Below are positions 16,452-38,360 of a DNA stretch of 42,221 nt, in pieces. Origin of the DNA: Limisphaerales bacterium (GTDB lineage Bacteria; Verrucomicrobiota; Verrucomicrobiia; Limisphaerales; BOG-1460); assembly GCA_003159675.1 (NCBI GenBank), contig PLQC01000045.1:1-42221 (forward strand), read 5' to 3'. The number at the start of each line of letters is the position of its first letter. The first letter of the stretch is position 1. The translations under genes were made by a program, and so were the position numbers. Below the pieces are notes generated by a model, which saw only the letters and a list, made by a program, of their open reading frames with translations, was not told where the DNA came from and did not search any database.

Positions 16452-19400
16452 CTAGGGTTGTTGATCGACGGTGGCGGAAGCCTTCGACCCGGTCGTCGGG
16501 TGGCCGTTGGTGGACTTGGGGTCGCGTTTGGCGAGGAACTCGTAGAACTTCCAGCGGCGGTCGACATCGCCCTGCGCCTGCGCAAACAGTTTTTTGGCTT
16601 CCTCCGGCCGGCTCTTGGTCAGCATCTTGAACCGGTTTTCCGAAAGGAGATAGTCCTGCAGCCGCGTTTTGGCAGCCTGCGAATCGACTTGCAGCGGATT
16701 CTCACCGGCTTCGGCCCGCCGGGGGTCATAGCGATACAGGAGCCATTGGCCGGATTCAACCGCGAGCTTCTGCTGGCGCGCGCCGACGCCCATATCGATG
16801 GCGATGCCATGCGCGATGCAGTGGCTGTAGGCGATGATGAGCGACGGGCCGGGATAGGATTCGGCCTCCAAAAAGGCGCGCAGTGTCTGCTCGTCCTTTG
16901 CGCCCATCGCGACGCTGGCCACGTAAATGTTCCCATACGTCATGGCGATCAACCCGAGATCCTTCTTTGCGAGCGGCTTGCCGCCCGCCGCGAACTTCGC
17001 CACCGCCCCCCGCGGCGTGGATTTGGACATCTGCCCGCCGGTATTGGAGTACACCTCCGTGTCGAGCACGAGCACGTTGACGTCGCGCCCGCTCGCCAGC
17101 ACATGGTCCAACCCGCCGTAGCCGATGTCGTAGGCCCAGCCGTCGCCGCCAAGGATCCAGACACTCCTGCGGACGAGCGTGTCGGCGACGGACAACAGCA
17201 GCTTGGCTTCGGGCGCGTCCAACTTGGCAAGTTTCTGCTTGAGAGCGGCCACGCGTTCACGCTGTTCGTGAATGCCGGTTTCGTCCGTCTGCGAGGCGTG
17301 GAGGATGCCGCTGGCGAGGTCGTCGCCCAGTTGGGGCGCGAGTTTCGCCAGGAGTTCGCCGGCGAACTCACGTTGCTTATCGATGGAAACGCGGAAGCCC
17401 AGGCCAAACTCGGCGTTGTCTTCGAAGAGCGAGTTGCACCAGGCGGGGCCGCGGCCGCCTTTGTCCACGCAATACGGCGTGGTGGGGAGATTGCCGCTGT
17501 AAATGGAGGAGCAACCCGTGGCGTTTGCGATGACCGCGCGGTCGCCGAACAACTGCGACAGCATCTTGATGTAGGGAGTCTCGCCGCAACCCGCGCACGC
17601 GCCGCTGAACTCGAACAGGGGCCGCATGAGCTGCTGCTGGCGCAGTTGCGTGGTCTTGAGTTTGCGCCGGTCCGACTCGGGCAGCGCGAGGAAGAAATCC
17701 CAGTTCGCGCTCTCTTGCGCGCGCAGGGGCGCTTGCGGCTGCATGTTGATGGCTTTGAGTTTGGCCTCGGCCTTGTTGCGCGCGGGGCAGACGTCCACGC
17801 ACAGCGCGCATCCGGTGCAATCCTCCGCGGCGACCTGCAACGTGAATTTCATGCCTTTGAACTCGGGCACACGGGCGTCGGTGCGCTTGAATCCCGCCGG
17901 CGCGCCGTCCAGCGCGCCGGGTTCATAGACTTTCGCCCGGATGGTCGCATGCGGGCAGATCGCCACGCACTTCAAACATTGGATGCAGATTTTTTCGTCC
18001 CAGACAGGGATATCCTGCGCGAGATTGCGTTTTTCATATTGCGCGGTGGCGGTCGGGAACGTGCCATCGCAGGGAAACACGCTGACGGGCAGATCGTCGC
18101 CTTCGCCGGCGGCGAGGCGGCCGAGGACTTCCTTCACAAATCTCGGGGCATTCGGCGTGACCGGGGGCAGCAGGCCGCCGGTGCCGTTCGCGCGTTGCGA
18201 GAGGGGTACCTGGTGCAAATGCTCGAGCGTGTTGTCCACCGCCTTGAGGTTCATGGCCACGACCTCCTCGCCTTTCTTGCCATAGGTCTTCTTGATGGAA
18301 TACTTGATGGCCTCGATGGCCTTCTCGCGGGAGAGCACGCCGGACAACGCGAAGAAACACACCTGCATGATCGTGTTGATGCGCCCACCCATGCCGCTGT
18401 CCCGCGCCACTTTGCTCGCGTCGATGACATAGAAATTCGCCTTCTTCGCGATGAGCGACTCCTGCAGCGGCGTCGGCAGCTTGGACCAGACCTCGTCCTT
18501 GGAATAGGGCGTGTTCAGCAGGAACGTTCCGCCGGGAACCAGCGGTTTGGTCATGTCGTATTTCTCGAGGAACGCCGGCAGATGGCAGGCCACGAAATTG
18601 GCGCGGCTGACCAGATAGGTCGAACGGATCGGCTCCGGCCCGAAGCGGAGGTGCGAGACGGTCATGCTCCCCGACTTCTTGGAGTCATAGACGAAATACC
18701 CCTGCGCGTAATTGTCCGTTCCTTCGCCGATGATCTTGATGGAATTCTTGTTTGCGCCTACCGTGCCGTCGGCGCCCAGCCCGTAGAACAGCGCGCGAAT
18801 GACGCTGTCCGGTTCCGTGGAAAACTCCGGATCCACCGGCAGGCTCGTGTTCGAGACGTCGTCCGATATCCCCACGGTGAAATGATTCTTCGGCTGCGCC
18901 TGAGCGAGGTTGTCGAACACGGCCTTGACCATGGCCGGCGTGAATTCCTTGGAAGACAGCCCGTAACGGCCGCCGACGATGCGGGGCATCATTTTCAACC
19001 GGCCGATGCCGGTCATCAAGGCCTCTGCCACCGCGGTGATGACGTCCTGGTAAAGCGGCTCGCCGGTCGCCCCGGGTTCCTTGGTCCGATCGAGCACGGC
19101 GAGGGACTTCACGCTGGAGGGCAGCGCCTCGACGAACTTCCGCACGTCAAACGGACGATACAGCCGGACTTTCAACACGCCCACGCGTTCGCCCCGTTTG
19201 ATGAGGTAATCGGCGGTCTCGTGTGCGGTTTCGCAGCCGGATCCCATCAGCACAATGATGCGGTCGGCGTCGGGCGCTCCGACATATTGGTAAGGTTCGT
19301 AGGTGCGGCCCACCACTTTGGCAAACTGGTTCATGACGTCCTGCACGATCCCGGGACACGCCGCATAGAACGGGTTGCACGCCTCGCGCGCCTGGAAATA

Positions 19401-20075
19401 GGCGTCCGGATTCTGCGCCGTGCCGCGCAGCACGGGCCGGTCTGGGGACATCGCCCGCGCGCGGTGGGCGGCGATGAGTTCGTCGCTGATGAGCGCCCGC
19501 AGATCCGCTTCCGTCAGCATCTCGATCTTCTGCACCTCGTGCGAGGTGCGGAAGCCATCGAAGAAATGCACGAAGGGAATCCGCGAACGCAGCGTCGCGG
19601 CCTGGGCGATCAGGGCAAAGTCGGTGGCCTCCTGCACGCTGGCCGAGGCCAGCATGGCCCAGCCTGTCGATCGCACGGCCATCACGTCGCTGTGATCGCC
19701 GAAAATGGAGAGCGCGTGGGCGGCGACGGCGCGGGCGGTGACGTGAAAAACGGCGGGCAGCAATTCCCCTGCGATTTTGAACATGTTGGGGATCATCAAC
19801 AGGAGGCCTTGGGAGGCGGTGAAGGTGGTGGCCAGGGAGCCGGTCTGCAACGCGCCATGCACGCTGCCGGCCGCGCCGCCCTCGCTTTGCAGCGTCACCA
19901 CGGAAGGGATGGTGCCCCAGAGGTTGTTCTTGTGTTCGGACGCCCATTGATCGCAGAACTCGGCCATCGTTGACGACGGCGTGATGGGGTAGATGGCCAT
20001 CACCTCGTTCAGGCGGTAGGCGACGTGGGCGACGGCTTCATTGCCGTCCAGAGTCAGTTTTTGTCTTGTGCTCAT
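16452..20075 (-). CDS. nifJ: pyruvate:ferredoxin (flavodoxin) oxidoreductase
   Basis: A 1207-residue single-chain PFOR that oxidatively decarboxylates pyruvate to acetyl-CoA and CO2, passing electrons to ferredoxin or flavodoxin in the cytosol. Domains appear in the usual order. First is the pyrimidine-binding domain ([30 protein letters not shown]). Next come the transketolase C-like domain, the gamma domain ([20 protein letters not shown]) and a 2x[4Fe-4S] ferredoxin domain ([12 protein letters not shown] and [12 protein letters not shown]). The last is the TPP-binding domain ([38 protein letters not shown]) with CAGCGETPY ligands for the proximal cluster. Length matches the family. It heads an operon with the DHOD-like gene. 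Confidence 0.97.
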   Translation of the reverse strand: [1207 protein letters not shown]

Positions 20076-20612: not shown

Positions 20613-21956
20613 ATGGACTCCAAGACAGCGAAAACGCCTAAGCACGTGATCATTCTCGGCGCTGGTGCATCGGCGAGCTCCGGGTATCCTGTGGGGAATG
20701 ATCTCAGACTATGGATGTCTAGTCCTCGCTCTTTGAGGGAAAGAATCGAGGTCGTATTAAAAAAAGGCGTTGATGCCGACAGGCTTCTCATACTTCAACA
20801 CTTCGATGAGTGGATCAAACCGGTTGAAAAAGCCCTTCAATTGTTCCGAGAGGGAGATTTTGCGTCGGTGGATGAGTTCTGCCGACTGGCTGGGAATAGA
20901 TTAGAGAATGAAGTCAAACAGTTAAAAAAGGTTCTTCGACTTGCATTGAGTATTCATGACCCGGAAGACCACTATGAGCAATCTGACTACTATGGCTTTG
21001 TTCAGAGATTGTTCCAGCCGAATCTTGTCGACTTGCGAGATGACGTGGTAGTCCTGTCGTTCAATTATGACGTCTATTTGGAGTTTCTGTTGCGGAGAGC
21101 GGCCGGGATCCGTCAGGAGGTGACAAAAGGAAAATCTCATACGGAACTGGATCTGTTGACCAGCGGTTTTTCCAACCGAAACATCCAACTGATTGAAGGC
21201 ACCGACAAGTTCTGTCTCTTGAAACTGCACGGGGCTGTGGCGTGGCCGAACGCCGCCTCCGTAGGTTCGAAACGCGACGACTATTGTTGGTATGGGGACA
21301 TTCTCGGTTCCAAGGCTTCAGATCGCATCAGGACTCTTACATCCGAGGAGATTGGACAGAGTGAATCGCCGATTGTCTTTCCTTGGGAAATTATTGGCGA
21401 CGAAGGACATTTTAGGCCGGAGGATGAATTCCCATGTCGTGACAGTCAATGTTTGGCGAGTCAACTGACTGGGGCGTACAACGGACCAACAACCCAATTT
21501 CAGCTCTTCAAGTCAATCTGGACACGAGCTAAGGCCGAGGTATTTGCGGCAAACAGAATTTCCATTGTTGGTCTGTCCTTACATGAATACCTAATCCCGG
21601 GTCTTAGGTTCTTGCTCGAGGGCAAGAGTGGCGACATCGAACTTGTCGTGGCAGACAAATGCCTGCAGGGATTCGCGGGGGAAAGGCAAAACGAGGCGCA
21701 ATTTGATCTCCTCACACCTGTCGCGCGGCTCGATCAGTTACTCCGAGAGACATGCCCCGATCTGAGATGGAATGTTCAAAAGGGGCCGAGTCGAGTTCCC
21801 ATTCCACCAGCAAAGGTTGAAGCGTTAGTGAGAGAACCGATTGTACTCCATTCGAGTTTCGAGGATTTTATTTTAAAAGAGCTTGGGACGGGGACTTCAT
21901 ACCGAGGTGTAGTTCAGATTGGCAACACCGTTCAGCGCGAAACCCTGAAGGAGTAG
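20613..21956 (+). CDS. SIR2-like domain protein, probable defence NADase
   Basis: A 447-residue protein with a divergent SIR2-like Rossmann domain. GAGASASSGYPVGND (residues 16-30) is the nucleotide loop, SFNYD contains the catalytic-type Asn (N151), and LLKLHGAVAWPN contains the expected His (H206). Proteins of this type in bacteria usually hydrolyse NAD+ in abortive anti-phage defence (established for ThsA, DSR and pAgo-associated SIR2). The C-terminal third (from about residue 300) contains another Rossmann-like stretch (RISIVGLSLHEYLIPGLRFL) and no recognised sensor. It is the first gene of a three-gene plus-strand cluster, 84 bp before the next gene. The defence role is inferred from family and neighbours. 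Confidence 0.82.
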   Translation: MDSKTAKTPKHVIILGAGASASSGYPVGNDLRLWMSSPRSLRERIEVVLKKGVDADRLLILQHFDEWIKPVEKALQLFREGDFASVDEFCRLAGNRLENEVKQLKKVLRLALSIHDPEDHYEQSDYYGFVQRLFQPNLVDLRDDVVVLSFNYDVYLEFLLRRAAGIRQEVTKGKSHTELDLLTSGFSNRNIQLIEGTDKFCLLKLHGAVAWPNAASVGSKRDDYCWYGDILGSKASDRIRTLTSEEIGQSESPIVFPWEIIGDEGHFRPEDEFPCRDSQCLASQLTGAYNGPTTQFQLFKSIWTRAKAEVFAANRISIVGLSLHEYLIPGLRFLLEGKSGDIELVVADKCLQGFAGERQNEAQFDLLTPVARLDQLLRETCPDLRWNVQKGPSRVPIPPAKVEALVREPIVLHSSFEDFILKELGTGTSYRGVVQIGNTVQRETLKE

Positions 21957-22039
21957 AGACTGGTAGCAAAGTTCCTGGAATTTGACAAATCATCCTGTTT
22001 TCAAGGAATTAGCTGTTTTTTATACATGATTCTGGCAGA

Positions 22040-22807
22040 ATGGCGTCTATGGCAAACACCGCAATCATGGACATTCTTAGACCGCGACTGGCCGGTTTGA
22101 TTGCTCAAGGAAAGGCGCTTAAAGGATTGCAACACCCCGGCGTGAAGGGCAGGCTGCGTGAAATCCTCGTTCGTGAGGGTCTTGCACCATTTCTGCCGCC
22201 CGCCGTTTCTTCCATCACAGGCACAATTGTTTCGCCGATTTCGGCCAGGCGAGTCGTCAGGAATCAAGATGACATTATTATCTTCGACCGCAATTCATCG
22301 CCACTTCTTTTCGATGGAGCCGAATGTATTGTCCCACTGGAAGGAGTTGTTGCAGAAGTCGAGGTCCAAACCACCTTGACCCTCAAGAGAATCAGGGAGT
22401 CAGCGAAAGCAGCAATTGAACTCAGGGATTTAGCACGAGGATCAGCCCCGCTTTCTTTGCTGTTCTCCTATGATTCTGATTTAAAGAAGGGTAATGAGGC
22501 GGAACGATTATCCGCCGCTCTCAAGCAAATCACATTTCAAGCACATCCAGGCCAAGCGTCTTTCCCGATCCAGGGGATTTGTGTGGCAAGTAGGGGCACA
22601 TGGCTCTTCGTCCCTAAGAATGGCATTCACGGCTGGTGGTTTGTGGCACCTGACAATGAATGTCATCTATTCGCGTTTTTCAGCTGTATTTCGAATACGT
22701 TCTACAAACGCGGGGGTGCCTCCACAGGGGTAGGGGACTATCTACTCGACACGGACTGGCTCACTGGCCCGGTCATTGAATGCCCCGCGCTGGTTCCAGA
22801 ACCGTAG
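22040..22807 (+). CDS. DUF6602-like protein, nuclease-like fold suspected
   Basis: A 255-residue protein. Its layout resembles DUF6602: HPGVKGRLREIL near residue 32, a TG-x-I-V strand, NQDDIIIFDRNSSPLL (residues 75-90), then PLEGVVAEVEVQTTL (99-113). The D...E-x-x pattern around D78/D83 and E106/E108 looks like a PD-(D/E)XK core, but the usual Lys of ExK is Gln (EVQ, Q110). The protein could therefore be an inactive or modified nuclease or a sensor. It sits between the SIR2-like and HEPN-like genes, suggesting one system. The family assignment is from pattern memory and needs a profile search. Confidence 0.55.
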   Translation: MASMANTAIMDILRPRLAGLIAQGKALKGLQHPGVKGRLREILVREGLAPFLPPAVSSITGTIVSPISARRVVRNQDDIIIFDRNSSPLLFDGAECIVPLEGVVAEVEVQTTLTLKRIRESAKAAIELRDLARGSAPLSLLFSYDSDLKKGNEAERLSAALKQITFQAHPGQASFPIQGICVASRGTWLFVPKNGIHGWWFVAPDNECHLFAFFSCISNTFYKRGGASTGVGDYLLDTDWLTGPVIECPALVPEP

Positions 22808-22850
22808 AGACCGCCAACACGTTGTCGAACGCAATCCCGGATAGCTGAAT

Positions 22851-23657
22851 ATGACCCAGCGCAAATACGTGCTGTCTTACGCCCGAGAGGGTTATTGGGA
22901 GTGGGATGGGCTTGGGTTATTGGCGTGTCAATCTTGGAACTATGGGAATGCAAATAATTGGTTTTATAGCTTCCGTGCTGGCCTCAATGGTTTTCATGCC
23001 CGAATGGCTGGTGCCGAACATCATTATACAGCAATGCACGCGTGGCTGCCGCGGCCTCGCCCGCCTAAGGAAACGGAGTATCATCTGGCTGCATTCTTCT
23101 TCCACGCTGATTCCGCCTTCGAGTGCCTTGTTTTCGCGTTGAATGCGTTGGGGTATGCCATCAAAAGGGAAGGGTTCAGAGACACTGGAGATGACGGGGG
23201 TCTTCGCAGAATCGGGCCAACAGACCTTCTCGGTGACGCACGTAAGGGAACCAGGCCGTTGCCGGCTTACGTTAACTTTTATCCAAAAACGGTAGCATTG
23301 TGTGGGGCATCGCGCTCATTGCTAGAAGTGATCTTTGAACAGCACAACGCTTCAAAGCACCGGCACATGATTTATGTAGGTGGCGACATGAGAACAGATG
23401 CTCCTGAAGGGTTTTGGGAGACCTTGAATGTCGCTGACGAAAACCGCAACGAATTCCTGCCAGTTCATGACGTGATTCTCGATAACGACATACTGCTTCC
23501 ATTACACAAACGTAAGCCGGAGTCGGATGAAGAGTTTCCGTACTTTGAAGATTTAGCGGAATGCTTCTTTCATTTGATTGGCGCAATGGGAGAGACCATA
23601 GTGGATGATACACAATCAAATGCTATATATCCGCGCCTAAATAATTCGACATGTTAG
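22851..23657 (+). CDS. unknown protein, possible HEPN-like fold
   Basis: A 268-residue protein with no certain family. Two features recall HEPN ribonucleases. One is a helix, EYHLAAFFFHADSAFECLVF (77-96), running into ALNALGY. The other is a second helix near 155-172 ending HNASKHRH, where N166/H170/R171 could stand in for the R-x4-6-H site. Aromatic residues are abundant in the first 60 residues. It starts 44 bp after the DUF6602-like gene with no intervening promoter or terminator seen, so co-transcription is likely. The HEPN suggestion is weak and is based on helix pattern alone. Confidence 0.5.
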   Translation: MTQRKYVLSYAREGYWEWDGLGLLACQSWNYGNANNWFYSFRAGLNGFHARMAGAEHHYTAMHAWLPRPRPPKETEYHLAAFFFHADSAFECLVFALNALGYAIKREGFRDTGDDGGLRRIGPTDLLGDARKGTRPLPAYVNFYPKTVALCGASRSLLEVIFEQHNASKHRHMIYVGGDMRTDAPEGFWETLNVADENRNEFLPVHDVILDNDILLPLHKRKPESDEEFPYFEDLAECFFHLIGAMGETIVDDTQSNAIYPRLNNSTC

Positions 23658-23685
23658 TCTTCGCCGATTATGCTCTGTGGGCAAT

Positions 23686-24020
23686 ATGCGACCCGTATTT
23701 GCCCGAGGCAACCAACAAACGGCGGAGTTATTGCTGGAGTTGCGCAAGCAAGCGCTGCGTGACCAGGAATCGCGCGTTGCCCAACGGTTTCACGCAATCG
23801 CGTTAAGTCTGGAAGGTTACACAATCCCCCGAATCGCCCAAGCCCTCCAGGTGCATCGTTCTACCGTCCCTCTGTGGATTGAACACTGGAACCGAGAGCG
23901 GGAGAATGGCTTGCTGGAAGGTCATCGCAGTGGCCGTCCTGGCGAGTTGAGCCCAGAGCAGCGAGAAGCACTGCAGGACATTCTGGACAGCGGTCCGGTA
24001 GCTTACGGTCTGGAAACGAA
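23686..24020 (+). pseudogene. IS630-family transposase N-terminal remnant
   Basis: About 110 residues carry the IS630-type helix-turn-helix region (HAIALSLEGYTIPRIAQALQ, then VHRSTVPLWIEHWNRE), a Gly/Arg-rich linker and SPEQREALQDILDSGPVAYG. At that point the family sequence stops abruptly at an inverted repeat and the frame continues into unrelated residues to 24195. No DDE domain follows. A GTG at 23677 is an alternative start. It separates the SIR2-like operon from the TOTE gene. Confidence 0.75.
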
Positions 24021-24098
24021 AACGTGTCAGTCCCGACAATTTGTAGTCCGCAAGCGCGCCGTAGACGAAAAACTGCAAATTGTTGGGACTGACACGTT
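24021..24098. repeat. 26-bp inverted repeat at the IS630 break point
   Basis: The left arm 24021-24046 (AACGTGTCAGTCCCGACAAT...) is the reverse complement of the right arm 24073-24098 with two mismatches, around a 26-nt loop. It starts just where homology to the IS630 transposase ends, which suggests that it is an inserted palindromic element. Confidence 0.8.
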
Positions 24099-24119
24099 CA
24101 CTGGGACTGACACGTTCAC
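24084..24119. repeat. two tandem 18-bp repeats
   Basis: TGGGACTGACACGTTCAC occurs twice head to tail (24084-24101 and 24102-24119). The first copy overlaps the right arm of the neighbouring inverted repeat. Confidence 0.9.
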
Positions 24120-24169
24120 GGGTTCTCCTCGCAATCGACAAAACTGGGCGTTCACACTAAAGTCTGTGT

Positions 24170-24895
24170 GTGACAGAGAAGGTTTCGCACAGTGAATCCG
24201 CCGATTCGACCGCGGTGGTCCTGCCTCATCCAGCAGACGGAACGGTCACCCAAGGTTCATCGCCTGCCGCCAAAATCGCGCTGTTCCGATCCCTATTTCG
24301 CGGGCGTGAGGATGTTTATCCGGTTCGCTTTGAAAGTCGAAAGACGGGGCGGGCGGGTTACCAACCGGCCTGCGCGAATGAATGGGTGCGAGGGGTCTGT
24401 GAGAAGCCGAGAATCAAGTGCGCTGACTGCCTGAACCGTCGCCTCCTCGCTGTGACCGATGAGATTGTTCGCTGGCACCTTTCGGGAAGTGATGATCGGG
24501 GTCGCGACTTTATCATCGGAGTCTATCCCATGCTTCGGGACGAGTGCTGTCACTTTCTGGCGGTTGATTTCGACCGGCAGGACTGGCGACAGGATGCCGG
24601 CGCATTTCTCCAAACGTGCCGAAGGCTGGAATTACCGGCAGCTTTAGAACGATCGCGATCCGGCAATGGTGCGCATGTCTGGTTCTTCTTTGAAGAAGCG
24701 CTTCCGGCGCGTCTGGCCCGCAATCTTGGATCGTACCTTCTAACCGAAACAATGGAAGGACGCCCTGATATCGGCCTTCGGTCTTATGACCGGTTCTTCC
24801 CGAACCAGGACACATTGCCCAAAGGAGGCTTTGGAAACCTCACTACCACTACAAAAACAGCCGCGAACCCATGGCAACAGCGTCTTTCTGGATGA
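24170..24895 (+). pseudogene. TOTE-type archaeo-eukaryotic primase part, cut off by frameshift
   Basis: A 241-residue open frame containing a zinc-binding region (C68, C77, C84, C87 in CANEW...CADC). It also holds an archaeo-eukaryotic primase-like domain with FLAVDFDRQD (D133, D135) and RSRSGNGAHVWFFFEE (H169), then SYDRFFPNQDTLPKGGFGNL. This is the N-terminal part of TOTE conflict-system proteins, in which primase, SF2 helicase and nuclease domains work together. In intact relatives the chain runs on into the helicase part; here homology jumps to the +1 frame just after GGFGNL, near 24840, and this frame ends at 24895. A deletion of about 5 nt would explain it. A GTG start at 24170 is used, and KIALFRSLFRGRED marks the first clearly conserved residues. 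Confidence 0.75.
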
Positions 24896-27032
24896 GCGAC
24901 TGGAACCGTACGTGGATCAGTGGAAGTTTCTGGCATCATTCCGGCGGATAAGCAGGACACAAGCTGAAGCTGTCGTGCGGGACGCGGAGAACAGGGGGAG
25001 AATAATCGGTGTGCGCGCCGTGCTGACGATGGAAGGGGACGATGACTCACCCTGGACCGCTCCGCCGTCACGGCGGCGGAAGGAACCTCCGATTCTTGAA
25101 GCGTTGCCGGAGAGTCTGGATCTGGTCCTGGGTGACCAGATTTATATCGCAAAGCAGAATTTAGCTCCCGCGTTGCGCAACCGCCTTTTCCGGGTGGCCG
25201 CGTTTCAGAATCCAGAATTCTATCGAGCGCAGGCCATGCGTCTGCCAACTTACGACAAGCCGCGCATCATCGATTGCGCCGAAGACCATCCGCAGCACAT
25301 CGCGTTGCCCCGCGGCTGCCTGGAAGATGTGCAGGCACTGCTTGATCGCCTGAAGATCAAGTCGGTTTTGCGCGATCAGCGTTTTGGCGGCAGTCCCATA
25401 GCCGTCTCTTTCAAGGGCGAGTTGCGCCCGGAACAGCAGATAGCCGCGAACGCAATGCTCGCGCACGACACGGGCGTTCTGTCGGCAACCACCGCCTTCG
25501 GGAAGACCGTTCTTGCCGCATGGCTGATCGCCCAGCGCGGTGTAAATACACTTGTGCTGGTTCACCGGCAACAGTTGCTTGAGCAATGGGTCGAGCGTTT
25601 GTCTGCATTTCTTAAACTGCCCGAAAGGGCCATTGGACGCATAGGAGGCGGGCGCAGGAAACCGACCGGGACAATTGATGTCGCTACCATCCAAAGCTTG
25701 GTTCGCAAGGGTGTCGTTAACGACCTGGTGGCGAATTACGGCCATCTGGTCGTGGACGAGTGCCACCATTTGTCCGCCAGGAGTTTCGAACTCGTCGCGC
25801 GGCGTGCCAAAGTGAAATACATAACCGGCCTGTCTGCGACGGTGACTCGCAAGGACGGGCATCACCCGATCATCTTCATGCAGTGCGGACCGGTCCGTTA
25901 TCGCGTTGATGCGAAACAACAGGCTGCGGGCCGCCCGTTCCGCCACACGGTAATCGTCCGTCCCACCAATTTCCGTGCCCCGAATTTCTCGAGCGCCGAT
26001 CAGAGAGTCGAGTTTCACCGTCTTTACGAAGCGTTGGCCGGCGATTCCGCCCGCAACCAATTGATTTGTGATGATGTTGTGGGCGCAGTGCGGGAAGGGC
26101 GTTCACCACTTTTGCTAACTGAACGCAAGGAGCATCTGCAGCAATTAGCCCGATATCTATCCGGCAAAATTCCTTGTTTGACGATACTCCAGGGCGGCAT
26201 GGGGAAGAAAGCGTTGCGGCTCGCGACCGCGCAAATGGCGGCGGGCCCTCCAGATGTCCAGCGCGTGCTTCTGGCCACAGGAAAATACATTGGCGAAGGC
26301 TTCGACGAGCCGCGACTGGACACACTGTTTCTGGCGTTACCGGTGTCATGGCGGGGGACCATCGCTCAGTATGTCGGTCGTTTGCACCGGCTGCATGATG
26401 GCAAACACGAAGTGCGTGTTTATGATTACGCCGATCTCAACGTACCCATGCTGGCAAATATGTTCGACCGCCGATGCCAGGGATACGAGGCGGTCGGCTA
26501 CACAATCCTGTTGCCCGGGAGCGCCGTGGCCGGGTGGCCGGCGGATGTTCCGCTGCCGGTTGATCCAGAATGGAAAAGGGATTACGCCGCAAGCGTGCGT
26601 CGGCTCGTGCGCGATGGGGTGGACACTCCCCTGGCGAATCTCTTTGTTCATGCCGCCCGCCGCCTTTCTGCCGATACCGAGGGAGTTGATCGGGCCAGAA
26701 GCGCGAGTGAAGCATTTCTGTACCGCCGACTGGAAACATTGTCGGAAACCACTGGTCGCTTCCGTTTAAATGTGCGGCTGCCAATCCCGTTTGATGGCGA
26801 AGGAATGATGGAAGTTGACTTGTATTGCGCCGAAGCGCATGTGGCGGTCGAACTGGACGGGCCACAGCATTTGGCAGATCTGGAGGCCTACCGCCGCGAC
26901 CGGAGGAAGGATGCTCTGCTGCAAGAAAACGGCTGCTTCGTGTTGCGTTTCCTGGCGGAGGATGTCGGCAAACATCTGGATGGGGTTTTGGATACTATTC
27001 TCCGCGCCATGTCTCACCGACAGAGAAAATAG
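24786..27032 (+). CDS. TOTE-type SF2 helicase with C-terminal DUF559 nuclease (frameshifted from its primase domain)
   Basis: Residues matching the family begin at LPLQKQPRTHGNSVFLDERL, the direct continuation of the upstream primase frame. The SF2 helicase then shows ATTAFGKT (Walker A, about 234-241), VVDECHHLS (DECH box, 324-327), TGLSATVTRKDGHH (motif III), and TGKYIGEGFDEPRLDTLF with QYVGRLHR (motifs V and VI). The C-terminus carries a DUF559/Vsr-like nuclease (EVDLYCAEAHVAVELDGPQH, then RRKDALLQENGCFVLRF). On its own this frame could make a helicase-nuclease without the primase. It lies between the IS630 remnant and the AbiE genes. Whether it is expressed, broken, or restored by frameshifting cannot be told from sequence. 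Confidence 0.85.
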   Translation: MTGSSRTRTHCPKEALETSLPLQKQPRTHGNSVFLDERLEPYVDQWKFLASFRRISRTQAEAVVRDAENRGRIIGVRAVLTMEGDDDSPWTAPPSRRRKEPPILEALPESLDLVLGDQIYIAKQNLAPALRNRLFRVAAFQNPEFYRAQAMRLPTYDKPRIIDCAEDHPQHIALPRGCLEDVQALLDRLKIKSVLRDQRFGGSPIAVSFKGELRPEQQIAANAMLAHDTGVLSATTAFGKTVLAAWLIAQRGVNTLVLVHRQQLLEQWVERLSAFLKLPERAIGRIGGGRRKPTGTIDVATIQSLVRKGVVNDLVANYGHLVVDECHHLSARSFELVARRAKVKYITGLSATVTRKDGHHPIIFMQCGPVRYRVDAKQQAAGRPFRHTVIVRPTNFRAPNFSSADQRVEFHRLYEALAGDSARNQLICDDVVGAVREGRSPLLLTERKEHLQQLARYLSGKIPCLTILQGGMGKKALRLATAQMAAGPPDVQRVLLATGKYIGEGFDEPRLDTLFLALPVSWRGTIAQYVGRLHRLHDGKHEVRVYDYADLNVPMLANMFDRRCQGYEAVGYTILLPGSAVAGWPADVPLPVDPEWKRDYAASVRRLVRDGVDTPLANLFVHAARRLSADTEGVDRARSASEAFLYRRLETLSETTGRFRLNVRLPIPFDGEGMMEVDLYCAEAHVAVELDGPQHLADLEAYRRDRRKDALLQENGCFVLRFLAEDVGKHLDGVLDTILRAMSHRQRK

Positions 27033-27141: not shown

Positions 27142-27957
27142 ATGAAAGGAAACACCGAAAAACCCCGACGCTCAGGAGCAGCAGCAGCATTCGTTCACAG
27201 GAGGTTGGCCTCTGGTCACGTAGCCTTTCCGCTGCCGAATCTGGTCAAGGAAACGGGGTTGTCGGTGACGGCGGCAAGAAACCAGTTGCTGCGACTTGGC
27301 AATCGGGTAGTTCGAGTCTCGCGGATGCACCAGTTCTTCCTGATCGTCGGCCCGGAGCACATCGCCATGGGTGCTCCCCCCGTTGCGTGGTGGCTCGATG
27401 ACTACTTCAACTGGCTGGGCCATCCCTACTATCTGGCACTTCAATCGGCTGCTGGGACTTACGGCTCCACTCCCCAAGCTCTCCAGGTGACGCAGGTAAT
27501 GACCGACAGTCCACGGCGGCAGATCACAATAGGCCGTCTCCAGGTCCGGTTCTTTGTCAAACGCGGTATTGACCGAACCCCAACACAGCCCCTGACGAAC
27601 GCCTATGCGCCGCTGCGGGTCAGCACGCCCGAGGCGACGGCGTTCGACCTGGTCCGGTATGCATCGCGGACTGGGGGAATCGGGCGTGCGGTTGAGACAC
27701 TCTCCCCGCTGCTGCCGCTCATGCGTGTCCCCGACATGAAACGTGTGCTGGAAGCCGAAAACGAGACGAGCACCGCGCAAAGACTCGGATATATTATCGA
27801 GAGGACCGGCAGCGCGAAGCTGGTCGAAGCCATTCAGGACTGGCTCCCGTCGCCGCTTCCTTTAATCCCGCTCGTCCCAACGAAGGCCAACCTAACCACC
27901 GCACCCGTGATCGCACGCTGGCGGATTCTCAACAACTCGGGTGAATCTGGACTATGA
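27142..27957 (+). CDS. abiEi: AbiEi-type antitoxin / transcriptional autorepressor
   Basis: About 271 residues. The first helices carry a winged-helix DNA-binding domain (LASGHVAFPLPNLVKETGLS, then VTAARNQLLRLGNRVVRV). The C-terminal antitoxin domain includes WWLDDYFNWLGHPYYLALQS, STPEATAFDLVRYASRTGGI and RLGYIIERTG. In type IV AbiE systems this protein represses the operon and counteracts the nucleotidyltransferase AbiEii. Its stop overlaps the abiEii start by 4 nt (ATGA). The start is chosen at the ATG giving MKGNTEKPRR. An in-frame ATG at 27115 lies inside the inverted repeat and is the alternative. The open frame extends further up only because it shadows the helicase gene. Confidence 0.88.
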   Translation: MKGNTEKPRRSGAAAAFVHRRLASGHVAFPLPNLVKETGLSVTAARNQLLRLGNRVVRVSRMHQFFLIVGPEHIAMGAPPVAWWLDDYFNWLGHPYYLALQSAAGTYGSTPQALQVTQVMTDSPRRQITIGRLQVRFFVKRGIDRTPTQPLTNAYAPLRVSTPEATAFDLVRYASRTGGIGRAVETLSPLLPLMRVPDMKRVLEAENETSTAQRLGYIIERTGSAKLVEAIQDWLPSPLPLIPLVPTKANLTTAPVIARWRILNNSGESGL

Positions 27958-28799
27958 CTCCTCTCACCCGCCGGGACGTCCTCGCCCATCAAGCTCTTGT
28001 TCCGTGGCCCAGCCAACGCCAGGTCGAGCAAGATCTACTCCTGTGCCGCGCGATGCAGGCGCTGTTCAACGACCGATTCCTTCGCAGCCAAATCGCCATG
28101 CGCGGCGGCACGCTGCTGCACAAGGTTCATCTTGCACCTCCTTCACGTTATAGCGAGGACATTGACCTGGTTGTGTTTGGGGACAGGCCGGAAGACCACA
28201 TCCGCAGGGCCATCCGGCGGGTCTTGAGTGATGTGCTGGGCACACCGAAGACCTCGGCATGGGGCGCCATCACTCTGGCAGTCCGCAATTCCGTGAAACC
28301 TTCCCGGGTGTTGCGGATGACGTACTCCCTTTCATCAATCAGCGAGCCGGGGACGACGCTGGACATTGTGGTCGAGGCAAACATGACCGAGCGCACACCG
28401 CATCGCCCCATCGTGGAGATTCCCTTCGAGTTCGCATTCCGGGATGCGACGGTCAAGGCGCTGATCAATGGCTACGACATCCACGAGATGCTCGGCACCA
28501 AGATGCGCGCACTGTTCCAGCGCAGGCGAGGACGAGACCTCTTTGATTTATATTGGGCGCTGACGCTGGCCCGTCCACGAGTCGATCCCGCCGCAATTAT
28601 CGAGTCGTTCCAGCATTACCTCCAGCAGGAACGCAGCTCGGCAGGACGCGCAGAGTTCGTGGAGATCCTGGAGTCGCACCTTGCCGACCGCGGCTTCTGC
28701 TCCGACATGGATCAACTCCTTCGCGTCGGCGCCGAATACGATCCGCAGAAAGCTGGGGCCTTCGTAAAGGCAAAGCTGCTGAGTCTGCTGCCCAAATGA
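27954..28799 (+). CDS. abiEii: AbiEii-type nucleotidyltransferase toxin
   Basis: A 281-residue DNA polymerase-beta-like nucleotidyltransferase of the AbiEii family. These toxins inhibit growth during phage infection; the related MenT toxins modify tRNA 3' ends. The core motif AMRGGTLLHKVHLAPPSRYS is followed by EDIDLVVF, giving the GG pair (51-52) and metal-binding D69 and D71. Further family segments are VKALINGYDIHEMLGTKMRA and RGRDLFDLYWAL. All key residues appear intact. It is translationally coupled to the antitoxin gene and ends 48 bp before the attachment site of the integrated element, so it lies just outside that element. Confidence 0.92.
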   Translation: MTPLTRRDVLAHQALVPWPSQRQVEQDLLLCRAMQALFNDRFLRSQIAMRGGTLLHKVHLAPPSRYSEDIDLVVFGDRPEDHIRRAIRRVLSDVLGTPKTSAWGAITLAVRNSVKPSRVLRMTYSLSSISEPGTTLDIVVEANMTERTPHRPIVEIPFEFAFRDATVKALINGYDIHEMLGTKMRALFQRRRGRDLFDLYWALTLARPRVDPAAIIESFQHYLQQERSSAGRAEFVEILESHLADRGFCSDMDQLLRVGAEYDPQKAGAFVKAKLLSLLPK

Positions 28800-28847: not shown

Positions 28848-28880
28848 GGAAATTGGCTCCAGAGGTAGGGCTCGAACCTA
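28848..28880. other. attachment site (left), duplicate of the tRNA-Asn 3' end
   Basis: A 33-bp stretch identical to 41966-41998, covering the encoded CCA, discriminator, acceptor 3' strand and most of the T-arm of the tRNA-Asn gene on the minus strand. After CGAACCTA the two copies diverge at once. This is the pattern left by tyrosine-integrase insertion into a tRNA 3' end. Confidence 0.92.
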
Positions 28881-29549
28881 TGTTAGGGGTCTCCGGCTGG
28901 TTGCTACTTGTTATGTCTGGTTGTGTTTGCATGACAATACCTATACGCGCAATGCCCCGTAATTGCAAGGCATTTCTGCCATCTACCCATAAGCAGACGC
29001 AAGAAAACCTTTGGGAATGTTTGGGGCTCACGGAGGGCTTTGGGGAATGTTTGGTGAATAGATAACCGGGCAGAATGTTGGGGGAACCTTTGGGGCCATG
29101 CTGCGCGCCAAAAACGCTACAAACCACCCCACCTACTTGTGCCTCGTTGCGCCTTCTTGCGAATCCGATGCCGCCCCACCCCACCCCGACATGCCGACGC
29201 CTCGTCACCCGGCCCGTATCGGCGTCGCCCTGCGCGCTGGCTTGGCCCCCTGCGGCGTTTCGGCTTCGGGTGGGGGAATATGCCGGAATGAAGCGCGGCG
29301 TGTTGTGGCGCGTTTTAAACGATGGGAGGCTCTCGGTCCAGGACCTCGCGCACCAGTTGCCTAGTCCTGCGGCGATTTCGGAGGTGGAAGCCCCCCCGCC
29401 ATAGCACCCCCGCTGAATCCAGACCCGCCAGCCCGGCACAGCCTCCAGGCCCGTTCTTGCTGGTTCCTATTACATTTTGATTGAATGGGAAAGCTGGCCG
29501 GTGATATAAGCCGATCTGGCGGTTAAACCATAAAACACAATAAACTCTT
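28881..29549. other. left end of the element, non-coding apart from integrase arm sites
   Basis: About 670 bp between the left attachment core and the PEP-CTERM gene. It contains the repeated arm-like motifs at 29010-29095. Short open frames on both strands show no family resemblance and skewed composition, so none is called. Confidence 0.5.
29010..29095. promoter_or_regulatory. candidate integrase arm-type sites, left end
   Basis: The motif TTTGGG(G)AATGTTTGG appears at 29010-29026 and 29039-29054. A degenerate third copy (GAATGTTGGGGGAACCTTTG) covers 29073-29092. The 29039-29054 copy is identical over 16 bp to one at 41920-41935 beside the right core, as expected for repeated arm sites bound by the integrase N-terminal domain. 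Confidence 0.6.
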
Positions 29550-30410
29550 ATGATCACAATTAATCCATTCAAAACCACAGCATTGCTCCTCGTCAGTCTC
29601 AGCGTTCAACTGGCCGGACAGGCTCAAGTCTATCAACTGTCCACGCCTATCAGCGGCAGCATGACGATGGACATGACTGACCTTGCGGGGCCTACAGGTT
29701 CCTCGGGAAGCACCGTGTTTACGCTCAATAGTCTAACCGAGACGGTATATATCGACCCTGTGGCCGAAACCATACGTCAGGTCGGCTCCATTTCTGTTGC
29801 ACCATCAGGTCAAGATATCGTCATTAACGAAACACAACAGGCCCCGAGCCCGTTCCCAAATCCGCCGCATGCTGCTCCGGGTTCCATAACGATTTACGTC
29901 GCTCCCAGCGGCGGCAACATCATGAGTTTCGACACCGGCCCCCAACCCGTCACGTGGAATAGCGCATCTCAGAATTACACCTTCGACGGGACCATTTACA
30001 GCTTTCTTACGCCCATCAGTGCTTCATACTCATTGGTAACGGGCGGTCAGACCTACTCAGGAACAGTCAGCTATACTTTGGCTTTTAATGGCCAAGGAAC
30101 CACCTCGTATTCTTTTGGACAATTGGATACAGGGAGTTACCCGACAGCGATCTCGCTTAACGGTCTTGGGAATGGTTACGAAGGTGGCGTGTTTAGCAGT
30201 CAGCCGAGTGTGGTGGCCGATGTTACCGCGGCCAACGGCTTCCACATGGAGCTTAACCCTGGTACGGCCGGTATCTCTTATGCAGCCGATTACCTTAATT
30301 GGAGCTGTAATCAACCGGTCACTGCGTATCTTGTGCCCGAACCTGCTTCCGTTTCGGTGCTCGGCGTCGGCGCGCTTGCATTGGCCTTTTTGCGCCGTCG
30401 TCAGGTTTAG
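29550..30410 (+). CDS. PEP-CTERM sorting-signal surface protein
   Basis: A 286-residue exported protein. A signal peptide (TTALLLVSLSVQLAGQAQA-like, cleavage near residue 25) is followed by a Ser/Thr/Gly-rich beta-type body. It ends in a PEP-CTERM signal: VPEP, a hydrophobic helix SVSVLGVGALALAFL, and the basic tail RRRQV. Exosortase (EpsH-type) would cleave this signal and help place the protein at the cell surface. The body resembles no named domain. It lies inside the integrated element, alone on the plus strand, and is cargo unrelated to packaging or replication. Confidence 0.85.
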   Translation: MITINPFKTTALLLVSLSVQLAGQAQVYQLSTPISGSMTMDMTDLAGPTGSSGSTVFTLNSLTETVYIDPVAETIRQVGSISVAPSGQDIVINETQQAPSPFPNPPHAAPGSITIYVAPSGGNIMSFDTGPQPVTWNSASQNYTFDGTIYSFLTPISASYSLVTGGQTYSGTVSYTLAFNGQGTTSYSFGQLDTGSYPTAISLNGLGNGYEGGVFSSQPSVVADVTAANGFHMELNPGTAGISYAADYLNWSCNQPVTAYLVPEPASVSVLGVGALALAFLRRRQV

Positions 30411-30598
30411 TCGATGACTCCTTAACACCACTCCGACCAACGAGCGGCAGCACTTATTAGTCGTTGTCCTTGCGCGCTGGTTTCGCGCCAGGGCCGTGTT
30501 CCGGGTGCGGGTGCGTCACAATATGTGCCGGATCGGATATGCGGCGAGGTGTGGGGCGTTTTAAGCGCGAGCCTTGCGGACGCGGTAGTGCCGGGGCA

Positions 30599-30862
30599 TC
30601 GAACGAGGATGTGGCCTACCCGGAACGATTCGCCCAGCAGGCCTTGGGGCACAATTCCAAGGCGGTGCATCACGCCTACTCGAAACACGCGGAAGTCACT
30701 GTGCCGTCGCTGGATGATTGGGAGAAGGATTGGCAGAAGAACCCGCAGGGCGTGGCGAAACCGAAGCTGCTGCCAGTGGATTTCCGGTCGCGACATGATA
30801 ACGTGAGCAGCGCTGATGGCGAAATGCCGGTGGTGGACGTGGTTCAAGCGGTGGCAGGGTGA
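30599..30862 (+). pseudogene. C-terminal remnant of a second tyrosine integrase
   Basis: About 88 residues match the end of a phage-type tyrosine recombinase: AQQALGHNSKAVHHAYSKHA contains the GH box and the catalytic tyrosine (HHAYSK), followed by VPSLDDWEKDWQKNP. The conserved part begins near NEDVAYPERF; upstream sequence in the same frame is unrelated and Cys-rich, so the core-binding domain and first catalytic residues are lost. It points to an earlier element at or near this site. Confidence 0.7.
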
Positions 30863-30990
30863 CCCGTGCAGGAATCGTCTTCACCAATGACAGCGCCACC
30901 GGTTGGCGATGTTTCGTGTATAGACCCGGAGTTGGGTGTTGATCAAAGATTCCTTGACTTGACATATGAATCGAGTCGAAAACTGGTGCA

Positions 30991-31179
30991 ATGCATATGA
31001 AGGCGAACGATACGGTAAAATATTCGAAGCCGGTTGATGAGGAGGAGGCTAAGCTGCGGTTTACTTTGCTGCGGGATCCAGAAAAGGGGCGCGTGGATAT
31101 TCAGCTTAACTGCGATTACCGCATCAAGCCCGTTGAAACGGTTGAGGTCGGGGAGGTTGAGCTAGCCAACGACCCGTAA
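30991..31179 (+). CDS. small hypothetical protein
   Basis: A 62-residue acidic protein with normal amino-acid composition (EEEAKLRFTLLRDPEKGRVD and on to VEVGEVELANDP), probably a small beta protein. An in-frame ATG two codons later is equally possible as start. It ends 22 bp before, and converges on, the GIY-YIG nuclease gene. No family is recognised. A small control or anti-restriction protein is conceivable from position only. Confidence 0.45.
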   Translation: MHMKANDTVKYSKPVDEEEAKLRFTLLRDPEKGRVDIQLNCDYRIKPVETVEVGEVELANDP

Positions 31180-31201
31180 GGTTCCGGTGGCGGAAGTCTG
31201 G

Positions 31202-31930
31202 CTAGTCTTCGCCCTGGTCGTCTGTGCCTTTGGGAAAGTCCTTCAGGCGCTTTTCGGCGAGACGTTCCAAACGCTTGGCCTGTGTCAGGAGGGTTGTGCG
31301 GAGACCTCGTTTGACATTGCGCTCGCTTATTCTGCGAGCGAGGCTGGCGATCGTGCTTGCGCGCCTGGCGATTCGGACGTCGGGGTGTTTCCGCTGCGGA
31401 TAAATGCTCTCAGGTATGATGCGCCTTGAGTAGGACTTGGGAAGATCGATCACCTCGGTCTGCCGTGGGGGTTTTTCGTTCAGAACCGCGCCAAGCTTTG
31501 ACTCGCGGACGACCTTTTCAAAGACGGTGAACTCGGCTCGGTCGAGGTGGTCACGATGGCTCTCCTTGTCCATGTCGGAAAGGTCCAGCGGCCACACCCG
31601 AATTTCGGCGACCTCGAAGGGGTCGAGGACGTTCATGGCGACTGCGTCGGTTCGCTGGTTGGTTAGGTGGCGTCCGATTCTGCTGCCGAGACCTTCAAAG
31701 GTCTGTCCAACGTAGATTGGTTCGCCGTCGTAGTCGTAAAATGCGTAAACGCCCCATTGGTTGTTGCCGATGCGCCGCCCATTATCGTCCAGAGTCTTAA
31801 AGAAGGCGTCTATTTCTTTGCGGATGATGGTAACGTCAGCCGGTGGGCCCAGGTGCGTTCCATCAGCGGCGGGGTGTTTTGCGGTAGGTGACGACGACTT
31901 CTGCGAGTTTTTCGAGTTTTTCTTGGGCAT
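31202..31930 (-). CDS. GIY-YIG nuclease, probable restriction endonuclease of the cassette
   Basis: A 242-residue protein with a GIY-YIG nuclease domain. GVYAFYDYDGEPIYVGQTFE gives the GVY (60-62) and YVG (73-75) motifs, R84 or R87 in GLGSRIGRHL is the likely catalytic Arg, and the metal-binding Glu lies in DRAEFTVFEKV (E133 or E138). The C-terminal third is Arg/Lys-rich and may bind DNA. It directly follows a C5-cytosine methyltransferase gene, as in R-M systems such as Eco29kI, whose endonuclease is also GIY-YIG. The ATG start lies 68 nt inside the methyltransferase gene. The first 22 residues are Ser/Lys-rich, so a downstream non-ATG start is possible. Confidence 0.8.
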   Translation of the reverse strand: MPKKNSKNSQKSSSPTAKHPAADGTHLGPPADVTIIRKEIDAFFKTLDDNGRRIGNNQWGVYAFYDYDGEPIYVGQTFEGLGSRIGRHLTNQRTDAVAMNVLDPFEVAEIRVWPLDLSDMDKESHRDHLDRAEFTVFEKVVRESKLGAVLNEKPPRQTEVIDLPKSYSRRIIPESIYPQRKHPDVRIARRASTIASLARRISERNVKRGLRTTLLTQAKRLERLAEKRLKDFPKGTDDQGED

Positions 31931-33038
31931 ACTCTTCCATCCAGACGGGGGTTAAGTAATTGCGAGCGATCCATTCGATGACGGGCACGCAGACGGCGTC
32001 ACCGAAGCCGAACAGGGCTTGGTTGATGGGGACTTTGAGGGTGAAGTCGTCGGCACCCATGAGGCGGGCACACTCGCGCGGCGTCAGGAGGCGGACAACA
32101 AAGCGGCCTTTGCCGGCAGCAAAAAGAATCTGACGACCACTCCCGCCTCGGGGCGTTCGGAGACAGCCGGCGATGCCGTCGGTGCGGAGTTCGGCCATGG
32201 ACTGGCCGTTGCGAACGCGCCGGAAGACCGTCCCGTAACTGGTGCGGTTGCCTGCGATCATCTTGTCTGCCTGGGTGCGGTGCTTCTGGCTCATCTGTTT
32301 GAGCAGGTAGTCGCACCGCTCGCGGCTCCACCACATTTGGGAATTCGGGGAGAGGTTTTCCAAAATCTCGTCCAACCGCTTGGTGGAGGTGGGCAGCGGG
32401 GGCAGCTTGCGAATGCGCCAGTTGATGTCGGGATTCCAGATGATGAAATCAGCCAGGGCAGCCGGTCTGCTGTCGCTTTCGTAAAACCTGGGCGAGTCGT
32501 TCAGGGCAGAAACATCTTTGGTTTTCTGGCCGATGACGAAGAGCCTCTGGCGGCTTTGGGGCACGAAACGAAGGGCGTCGATGATGAAGGCGTCAACCGC
32601 GTAACCGAGACGGTTCAGCGCGAGGAGAGCGTCGCGGAAGTCGTTGCCGTCACATGAGGTGAGAAAGCCGGTGACATTTTCAAGAAGGATAATTGGGGGG
32701 CGGCGGGGACCCATTTTGGTGAGGACCTCGACAAATCCCCAAAAGGCGGACGACTGCGCGCCTTCGAGGCCCTTGCGGGCACCCGCGAGGGATAGGTCGT
32801 TGCAGGGGAAAGATGCGGTGGCAAGGGCGACGGTGGGCACAGCGGCGGCGTCCAGTTTGTGAACGTCGCCCACGACGAACTCGCCGGTGTCACCAAAGTG
32901 GTCTCGATACATCTTCCACTTGTCTTCGTCAATGTCGTTGGCAAAGGCGATGCGCCAGCCGGCATTCTCCAAGCCGATGCGCATCAGGCCGATGCCGGCG
33001 AAGAATTCGGCGAATGTCTTTTCCACTGGTTGGCTCAT
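31863..33038 (-). CDS. DNA (cytosine-5-)-methyltransferase
   Basis: A 391-residue type II modification enzyme that transfers methyl from S-adenosylmethionine to cytosine C5. The motifs are in order: FAEFFAGIGLMRIGLENAGW (I), SFPCNDLSLAG with nucleophile C79 (IV), LLENVTGFL (VI), PQSRQRLFVIG (VIII), LLTPRECARLMGADDF (IX) and FGDAVCVPVIEWIA (X, with D for the usual N). A target-recognition region lies between VIII and IX. The ATG start is chosen because it overlaps the vsr stop by 4 nt (ATGA); the frame runs 32 codons further upstream only as a shadow of vsr. The target sequence cannot be read from the protein. Confidence 0.95.
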   Translation of the reverse strand: MSQPVEKTFAEFFAGIGLMRIGLENAGWRIAFANDIDEDKWKMYRDHFGDTGEFVVGDVHKLDAAAVPTVALATASFPCNDLSLAGARKGLEGAQSSAFWGFVEVLTKMGPRRPPIILLENVTGFLTSCDGNDFRDALLALNRLGYAVDAFIIDALRFVPQSRQRLFVIGQKTKDVSALNDSPRFYESDSRPAALADFIIWNPDINWRIRKLPPLPTSTKRLDEILENLSPNSQMWWSRERCDYLLKQMSQKHRTQADKMIAGNRTSYGTVFRRVRNGQSMAELRTDGIAGCLRTPRGGSGRQILFAAGKGRFVVRLLTPRECARLMGADDFTLKVPINQALFGFGDAVCVPVIEWIARNYLTPVWMEEYAQEKLEKLAEVVVTYRKTPRR

Positions 33039-33475
33039 GTTCCGGACAGATGTTTGCACTGAGTCCACGCCGCATTCAACTCGGAAGAGATGCGAGTTGC
33101 AACAACATCTGGAGCGCACAGGGAATGTCCCCATATGCGAAGGACCCTCCAGCCTGCCTTACGCAATAACCGCGTGGCCCGTTGGTCACGTACGACATTG
33201 CCGGCAATTTTGGCTTTCCAGTATGTACGATTGTCGCGGGGCATACGACAGTGCCAGCGGCAGCCATGCCAGAAGCAACCGTCCACGAACACAGCTATGT
33301 GGACGCGGGGGAAGATGAAGTCGGGGCGACCGGGGAGCGGCTGGTGGCGACGCCAGCCGGATATGCCGGCGGCGCGAAGGATGGAGACCAGCTTTAGCTC
33401 GGTGGCTTTGTTGCCACGAGACCGGATCGCGGCCATGACTTGCGAGCGCTGTTTCTTTGTGAAGATGTCTGGCAC
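33035..33475 (-). CDS. vsr: very short patch repair endonuclease
   Basis: A 146-residue Vsr endonuclease, which nicks next to T:G mismatches made by deamination of 5-methylcytosine and so protects sites methylated by its partner. The typical opening DIFTKKQRSQVMAAIRSRGN is followed by LPGRPDFIFPRVHIAVFVDG (catalytic D52), CFWHGC with further Cys/His for the structural zinc, and a C-terminal WRVLRIWGH. It is the first gene of the R-M cassette and is translationally coupled to the methyltransferase. Confidence 0.95.
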   Translation of the reverse strand: MPDIFTKKQRSQVMAAIRSRGNKATELKLVSILRAAGISGWRRHQPLPGRPDFIFPRVHIAVFVDGCFWHGCRWHCRMPRDNRTYWKAKIAGNVVRDQRATRLLRKAGWRVLRIWGHSLCAPDVVATRISSELNAAWTQCKHLSGT

Positions 33476-33908
33476 GGCTAGAGCTTAAAAGGTTTTGGAG
33501 GGCTTGTCAGCAGGGGTGATGGCGAGGGGGGGGGCTGGTGTCATGGACGTGATGCGTGCGCCAGCCGTTTTGCGACGAGAGCCGCGTTGGGTTCGCAGCT
33601 CATTTAGCGGAGAATTCAACGCCGCTTTGGTCGTACCATTCAATTCTGCGGAGTGACGAAACTTGGCTGCCGGAATGGAGCGGCAACCTGGCGGAGTGCA
33701 GCGGTGGCGCAGTTCGGTCGCGTGGGCGTCTTGGGGCAAGCCAGTCTTTCGGCTTACGGCGTCAAGCCAGTTGACGGAAAGTCTGGCGCGGGGGCGGGTG
33801 CAATTTCAGCGCGACGGAACGAGCGCACAAGAGGAACGAAGGCCAGGTTGACGCGGAATGTACGGAGCCAAGTTCGGTCACGACATGGGATCTGCAACAA
33901 AATGGAGC
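33476..33908. other. gap between vsr and the RadC remnant, no supported gene
   Basis: About 430 bp. An open frame at 33485-33739 on the minus strand (84 residues, Arg/Thr/Ala/Pro-rich) just upstream of vsr has no recognisable domain and composition unlike its neighbours, so it is not called as a gene. The promoter of the R-M cassette should lie here. Confidence 0.4.
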
Positions 33909-34095
33909 CTAGCTCCAGAAAAACCCCAGTTCGCGGAGTGATTTATGGGCGGGGCGGTCGGCGGTGGCTGTGCCCATGATGACGTGATCCAGCACTTCGA
34001 CTTTCAATAGCTGGCCGGCGCGGATTAAATCCCTTGTGATCTTGATGGCTCTGTTCCTTCCGCTCGCGTTGCTTTGTGCTGTCTCATGGTGCTCG
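33909..34095 (-). pseudogene. RadC/JAB-domain C-terminal remnant
   Basis: Reading the minus strand without requiring a start codon gives about 60 residues. They include HHETAQSNASGRNRAIKITR, then DLIRAGQLLKVEVLDHVIMG, and end in SLRELGFF-W-S before TAG at 33909-33911. This is the C-terminal end of RadC-family JAB/MPN proteins (TRdLIrAGqLLkievLDHVIiG...SLRE.G). The metal-binding HxHPSGDP loop is missing or degenerate (EHHETAQSNASG). The frame overlaps the end of the terminase large-subunit gene in another phase, so the N-terminal part has been deleted. Confidence 0.7.
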
Positions 34096-34101
34096 GCATA
34101 A

Positions 34102-35559: not shown

Positions 35560-35562
35560 GGT

Positions 35563-35784
35563 TCAATCCGTTCTCTTTCCTTCAAGTTCGGCGATGTGCT
35601 CGGCAGCGGCTTTGCACCTCCAGTCGCCCCCGTCGCCGATCAAGGACAAGTTTATCCGAAGCCGGCGCAACGATTCTTTCGGCGCATCATCCCACTCGCC
35701 GGCGAGCACCTGGACGCCCGTCCAGCGCCATCTGTTCAGCGCAGGAAATGACGGCGTGTAGTCGGGTTCATTGTTCCAGCTCAA
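35563..35784 (-). CDS. small hypothetical protein in the packaging operon
   Basis: A 73-residue protein from a TTG that overlaps the stop of the upstream HEAGH-motif gene (TTGA), which fits the four-base overlaps along this operon. It is Trp- and Arg-rich (WRWTGVQVLAGEWDDAPKES) and ends HIAELEGKRTD. The same frame can be extended to a TTG at 35835, but that would overlap the previous gene by 55 nt. No family is recognised. The position directly before terL suggests a packaging accessory role, which is a guess. Confidence 0.5.
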   Translation of the reverse strand: MSWNNEPDYTPSFPALNRWRWTGVQVLAGEWDDAPKESLRRLRINLSLIGDGGDWRCKAAAEHIAELEGKRTD

Positions 35785-36716: not shown

Positions 36717-36907
36717 GTCGCCGCCGCCGACTCGGCCTGTGCGGCTTCGATGTGTTTGATGACTGAGAGCACGCGATGCAACCGGCTGGCGTCGGCGCGC
36801 TTTGCGGTGCCGGCCCCGATCAATCCCTCCAGCCGCTTCCGCTCGGACTTCAATTCATCGAGCGTCAGCTCGTGCTCGTGCGCTTCAGAAACTTTTTGGG
36901 TTTGCAT
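36713..36907 (-). CDS. small helical hypothetical protein
   Basis: A 64-residue charged, helical protein (HELTLDELKSERKRLEGLIG, then RLHRVLSVIKHIEAAQAE), probably a short coiled coil. The ATG at 36907 is preferred over a TTG four codons upstream. Its stop overlaps the GTG start of the HEAGH-motif gene. No family is recognised. Confidence 0.5.
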   Translation of the reverse strand: MQTQKVSEAHEHELTLDELKSERKRLEGLIGAGTAKRADASRLHRVLSVIKHIEAAQAESAAAT

Positions 36908-36955
36908 AGGTTTATTCAACGGGTTGGATTGTTAGAGTGCTAATCGCGGCCTCGA

Positions 36956-38040: not shown

Positions 38041-38360
38041 GCGGACTGATTCTGGCGAGCCAACAGGATATTGAGCGCCCGTTTTGGCGAAGGGTGATCG
38101 ACGCCATGCAGGGAGCGTGCAATTTCCATCCGCAGCGCAAGCTGTGCGTTGTCGAACTCGCCGCGCAGGACCTGGCCGGCTGTTGCAATCGCCCGGGCTC
38201 GCAGCAATTCCACCAGCGCCGCCTTGTTCGCGATAAGATCGGCGCGCAACTCGGGCGTCATGCGGTTTCGTGGACACAGCGAAAGCGTGTTGCCGTTCAC
38301 CCACACCAAAACGCCGCGCTCCGCCACGGCTGCCAAAAGGTCTTCAAGTTTTGTGTTCAT
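38037..38360 (-). CDS. TubC-like N-terminal docking-domain protein
   Basis: A 107-residue protein whose first 55 residues look like the TubC N-terminal docking domain: LEDLLAAVAERGVLVWVNGN, then a basic stretch and MTPELRADLIANKAALVELL. That fold was described as a docking domain in hybrid polyketide/non-ribosomal peptide synthetases, and similar small domains occur beside primases in mobile elements. Both ends are coupled by 4-nt overlaps, to the primase gene and to terS. A protein-protein adaptor for the replication complex is inferred from family and place. Confidence 0.65.
   Translation of the reverse strand: MNTKLEDLLAAVAERGVLVWVNGNTLSLCPRNRMTPELRADLIANKAALVELLRARAIATAGQVLRGEFDNAQLALRMEIARSLHGVDHPSPKRALNILLARQNQSA

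Follow-up and report, generated by a model that had tools for sequence, protein, structure and literature searches.

A 42,221-nucleotide stretch of the genome of a Limisphaerales bacterium (contig PLQC01000045.1, positions 1 to 42,221; here called the window) carries on its + strand, at 20613-21956, a gene whose product is a divergent SIR2-like protein by sequence (gene 1) and which is probably, although far from certainly, a single-gene effector of the SIR2 family, with the two genes that follow it (genes 2 and 3) as neighbouring cargo. The original prediction had grouped these three genes into one candidate defence system; no evidence for such a system was obtained, because relatives of genes 1 and 2 live apart and relatives of gene 3 are undetectable.

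Layout and coding status of the three genes

Three + strand open reading frames were delineated: gene 1 (447 residues), supported by its frame, profile matches and alignment; gene 2 (22040-22807, 255 residues), a DUF6602 / NucC-like PD-(D/E)XK protein supported by its frame, Pfam and phmmer; and gene 3 (22851-23657, 268 residues), an orphan of no known family whose coding potential is supported. The arrangement of three genes on the same strand was as first described, with the intervening gaps each one base pair shorter than the 84 and 44 bp given at the time, namely 83 bp between genes 1 and 2 (21957-22039, AT-rich, 36% GC) and 43 bp between genes 2 and 3 (22808-22850). All three frames are full and open and probably coding, including that of gene 3, for which the chance of an open frame of 268 codons at its own base composition was P about 1e-6 and the codon score was the best of the six frames, well above that of shuffled sequence.

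No terminator was found between the genes of the trio and, in the 83-bp gap, neither a terminator-like site nor a consensus promoter was found on the + strand; the short gaps, the common strand and the lack of a terminator therefore allow one transcript. The GC content of the trio was 0.49-0.52 as against 0.57-0.63 in the neighbouring pyruvate:ferredoxin oxidoreductase (PFOR), TOTE and AbiE genes, and codon usage correlated at 0.70-0.81 among the trio genes and at 0.36-0.69 between the trio and these neighbours. As GC content and codon usage are common to the trio and unlike those of PFOR, TOTE and AbiE, it is plausible from composition that the three genes arrived together as a unit.

The SIR2-like protein

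Gene 1 contains a Gly-rich GAGAS loop (residues 16-20), an FNYD motif with N151, a KLHG motif with H206 and a GLSxH motif (320-324). Its best PADLOC match was Aga_SIR2 (2.1e-9), and its score against Pfam SIR2_2 was 14.8 bits, below the cut-off of 24.5; of the five aligned members, three matched SIR2_2 with E no higher than 0.1. The 245 genomes searched from the same order contained two loci with close relatives at 38-40% identity, L012 and L013; distant relatives were found at two others, L014 and L015. In a five-sequence alignment of gene 1 with four homologues, G16-A-G18-x-S20, N151-Y-D, K-L-H206-G and G320-x-S-x-H324 were invariant, and A19 of the Gly-rich loop was variable in distant relatives. 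The SIR2-like assignment was thus upheld by the motifs and the Aga_SIR2 match, though below the SIR2_2 cut-off, and the Asn/His pair predicted to be intact is present and invariant across all five sequences. With three close members so far, all of one bacterial order, gene 1 extends the known island effectors by a divergent SIR2 subfamily.

In a profile comparison, the gene 1 family was linked at 95% probability to a Thalassospira plasmid protein annotated as 'SIR2 family protein'. On that plasmid (L047, 4287-9841) the distant SIR2 family gene lies on the same strand as a gene for an 'abortive infection family protein', and a RES/Xre-type toxin-antitoxin pair is located nearby. Samples of 286 class genomes and 236 phylum genomes, searched with strict limits, yielded no further SIR2 relatives. 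The hits at two other loci, L005 and L006, were put down to chance, the genes there reading as a reductase and a chemotaxis receptor, and the PDB matches of gene 1 and of its profile (BEN domain, calbindin) also looked like chance.

NADase activity in DSR2 depends on the Asn/His pair, and ThsA, pAgo-associated SIR2, DSR1 and HerA-associated SIR2 all conserve it (PMC11087589); for this reason NADase activity may fairly be inferred for gene 1 by analogy. Gene 1 shares its SIR2-type motifs, the catalytic Asn/His among them, with the SIR2 defence effectors DSR1/DSR2, ThsA, the SIR2-APAZ protein of SPARSA and SIR2-HerA. However, it is without the long sensor part of DSR2 (gene 1 having 447 residues in all) and without the Argonaute/APAZ partner of SPARSA, in which a short pAgo is joined by SIR2-APAZ, its neighbours being the DUF6602 gene, the orphan, TOTE and AbiE; nor was a HerA partner, as in SIR2-HerA, found beside it. 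On the favoured reading, gene 1 would probably hydrolyse NAD+ via N151 and H206, the trigger would be a sensed phage infection, as in DSR2 and ThsA, and hydrolysis of NAD+ would stop the host cell. Genes 2 and 3 would be separate cargo of the same island, the one a NucC-like PD-(D/E)XK protein with an active-site Gln and the other an orphan; the phage trigger and the functional independence of gene 1 from both are what we infer.

Association of the three genes in other genomes

The relative of gene 1 at L012 (about 40% identical, same order) is a single gene, with a convergent HNH gene downstream and, upstream, a gap of ~270 bp followed by an unrelated reading frame. At L013 the contig ends at the SIR2 relative, and the downstream flank of a close relative is therefore visible in L012 only. 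Neither a SIR2 relative nor gene 3 was found in any of 14 DUF6602 neighbourhoods from the 245 genomes of the order (visible flanks, at least 2.1 kb upstream in each), and viral contigs yielded no relative when scanned with each of the three genes or with the gene 1 and gene 2 alignments. The co-occurrence that a three-gene system would suggest was accordingly not seen elsewhere, an outcome that goes against the original prediction by its own standard, in a sample of relatives that is small because the family is rare: of the two close SIR2 relatives, one is solitary and the other is cut by the end of its contig.

An alternative is that the trio forms a lineage-specific defence operon, co-transcribed and co-acquired, composed of a SIR2 effector, a NucC-like non-cutting sensor (gene 2) and a helical partner (gene 3). 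This is unlikely though credible: the single strand, the 83- and 43-bp gaps with no terminator between, the composition and codon usage by which the trio differs from PFOR, TOTE and AbiE next to it, and the replacement of the catalytic Lys by Gln in gene 2 alone among 16 aligned DUF6602 sequences all argue for it, but it is opposed by the absence of co-occurrence, with one SIR2 relative solitary, 14 DUF6602 neighbourhoods devoid of a SIR2 relative and gene 3 an orphan. We regard as unlikely the related proposal of a rare lineage-specific defence operon that places the SIR2 NADase under the control of the orphan and of a NucC-like protein whose catalysis is silenced. Were the trio a unit, it would control a SIR2 NADase in a new way, by means of a nuclease-fold sensor. 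The preferred reading, an effector gene with separate cargo, carries a more general lesson, that genes may look like a multi-gene system from their neighbourhood alone and yet find no support for it among their relatives.

The DUF6602 / NucC-like protein

Gene 2 matched DUF6602 (PF20247) at 2.6e-15 with 56.7 bits, above the Pfam cut-off of 27, and its residues 23-138 matched residues 21-134 of E. coli NucC (phmmer, 3.5e-8, PDB 6p7o), the match being absent past residue 138. Its active-site pattern is D77/D78...E108-V109-Q110; the aligned position of Q110 is occupied by Lys in 15/15 relatives, so that gene 2 retains the conserved D and E of the NucC / DUF6602 family but has E108-V-Q110 where NucC has D...E-x-K. 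The nuclease-like pattern with Gln in place of the catalytic Lys was therefore described correctly and the DUF6602 family call holds; as judged by these matches, gene 2 genuinely belongs to the DUF6602 / NucC-like PD-(D/E)XK proteins. A single-sequence fold model of gene 2 was of poor quality, and no mention of DUF6602 was found in the literature searched.

The further suggestion that the Gln marks a sensor was not borne out, as the sequence does not imply one: Gln occupies the place of the Lys in BglII and NotI, which cut DNA (PMC4081073), and for that reason Gln110 is no proof of a loss of activity. A sequencing error at Q110 is also possible, since its codon (CAA, 22367-22369) is one base away from a Lys codon. 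These observations bear on a second alternative, in which gene 2 is an active nuclease in its own right (a NucC-like DNA cutter using E108/Q110), gene 3 is its partner or immunity protein and gene 1 is unrelated. We consider it quite improbable. It draws on the NucC similarity over residues 23-138 and on the activity of BglII and NotI with Gln at this position, but is countered by the Lys found in all aligned relatives, by the occurrence of DUF6602 relatives without gene 3 and by the absence of a CBASS signal of the SMODS kind: NucC in CBASS has a CD-NTase partner, and no match to a Pfam SMODS CD-NTase was found in gene 2's own genome or among the neighbouring genes scanned. A standard CBASS role of gene 2 is unlikely on account of this missing SMODS-type CD-NTase.

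The third gene

Gene 3 gave no match in Pfam (E up to 10), PADLOC, NCBIfam, PHROGs or PDB. No relatives were detected in 245 genomes from its order, 289 phylum genomes, viral contigs, plasmids and phages, nor in a scan of 84,980 species that was sensitive to close relatives only. Three candidates were discarded: one partly coincides with a HigB-like gene read in a different frame (L003), one shares a DAPEGFWE stretch that belongs to a long protein encoded in a transport-type operon (L007), and one was matched at E 0.006 among 245 genomes, which is chance level (L049).

The HEPN-like label proposed for gene 3 may yet hold but is unsupported. Its likeness to HEPN proteins consists of predicted helices only, at very low confidence (single-sequence fold model, pLDDT 32), with no match in the profile and structure collections named above. 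R-x5-6-H occurs at three places, and the probability of one or more R-x4-6-H in a shuffled sequence is 0.92, so that such motifs are at chance level; the helix end most resembling the possible R/N-x-H of the original prediction is H-N-A-S-K-H (165-170), which is without the Arg.

Genomic setting

The trio is part of a defence island that adjoins a tRNA-Asn integration site. To its left is the PFOR gene (16452-20075, - strand) and to its right, as first noted, are other defence genes, assigned using Pfam and PADLOC: a TOTE-type primase (AEP-TOTE) with helicase and DUF559 nuclease (24170-27032, + strand; Pfam) and an AbiEi/AbiEii type IV toxin-antitoxin pair (27160-28799, + strand; Pfam and PADLOC). 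The AEP-TOTE primase is split over two overlapping frames, 24170-24895 (profile positions 2-184) and 24786-27032 (186-228). This TOTE conflict system, whose C-terminal nuclease is of the DUF559 type, has either undergone a frameshift or been misassembled at the split. Just after gene 3, an N-terminal remnant of an IS630-type transposase was identified by profile match (23677-24195, + strand). That the trio genes are themselves leftovers in an old island, decayed or no longer functional, is very improbable; the IS630 remnant and the frame-split TOTE primase lie alongside, as decay would have it, but the three reading frames are uninterrupted and gene 1 keeps every catalytic motif.

The IS630 remnant contains a 27-bp near-perfect inverted repeat (arms 24021-24047 and 24072-24098), which is overlapped by an 18-bp tandem duplication at 24084-24119, the whole feature spanning 24021-24119. 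A perfect 33-bp direct repeat of the tRNA-Asn 3' end was located at 28848-28880 and, within tRNA-Asn, at 41966-41998; the trio is thus placed between the PFOR gene and the tRNA-Asn integration site, just outside the 13-kb integrative element (28848-41998) that these repeats bound. The element contains Prim-Pol, terminase, C5-methylase, Vsr and GIY-YIG genes, together with a putative integrase-like gene (40581-42032, - strand) that was read from the sequence and has no Pfam match.
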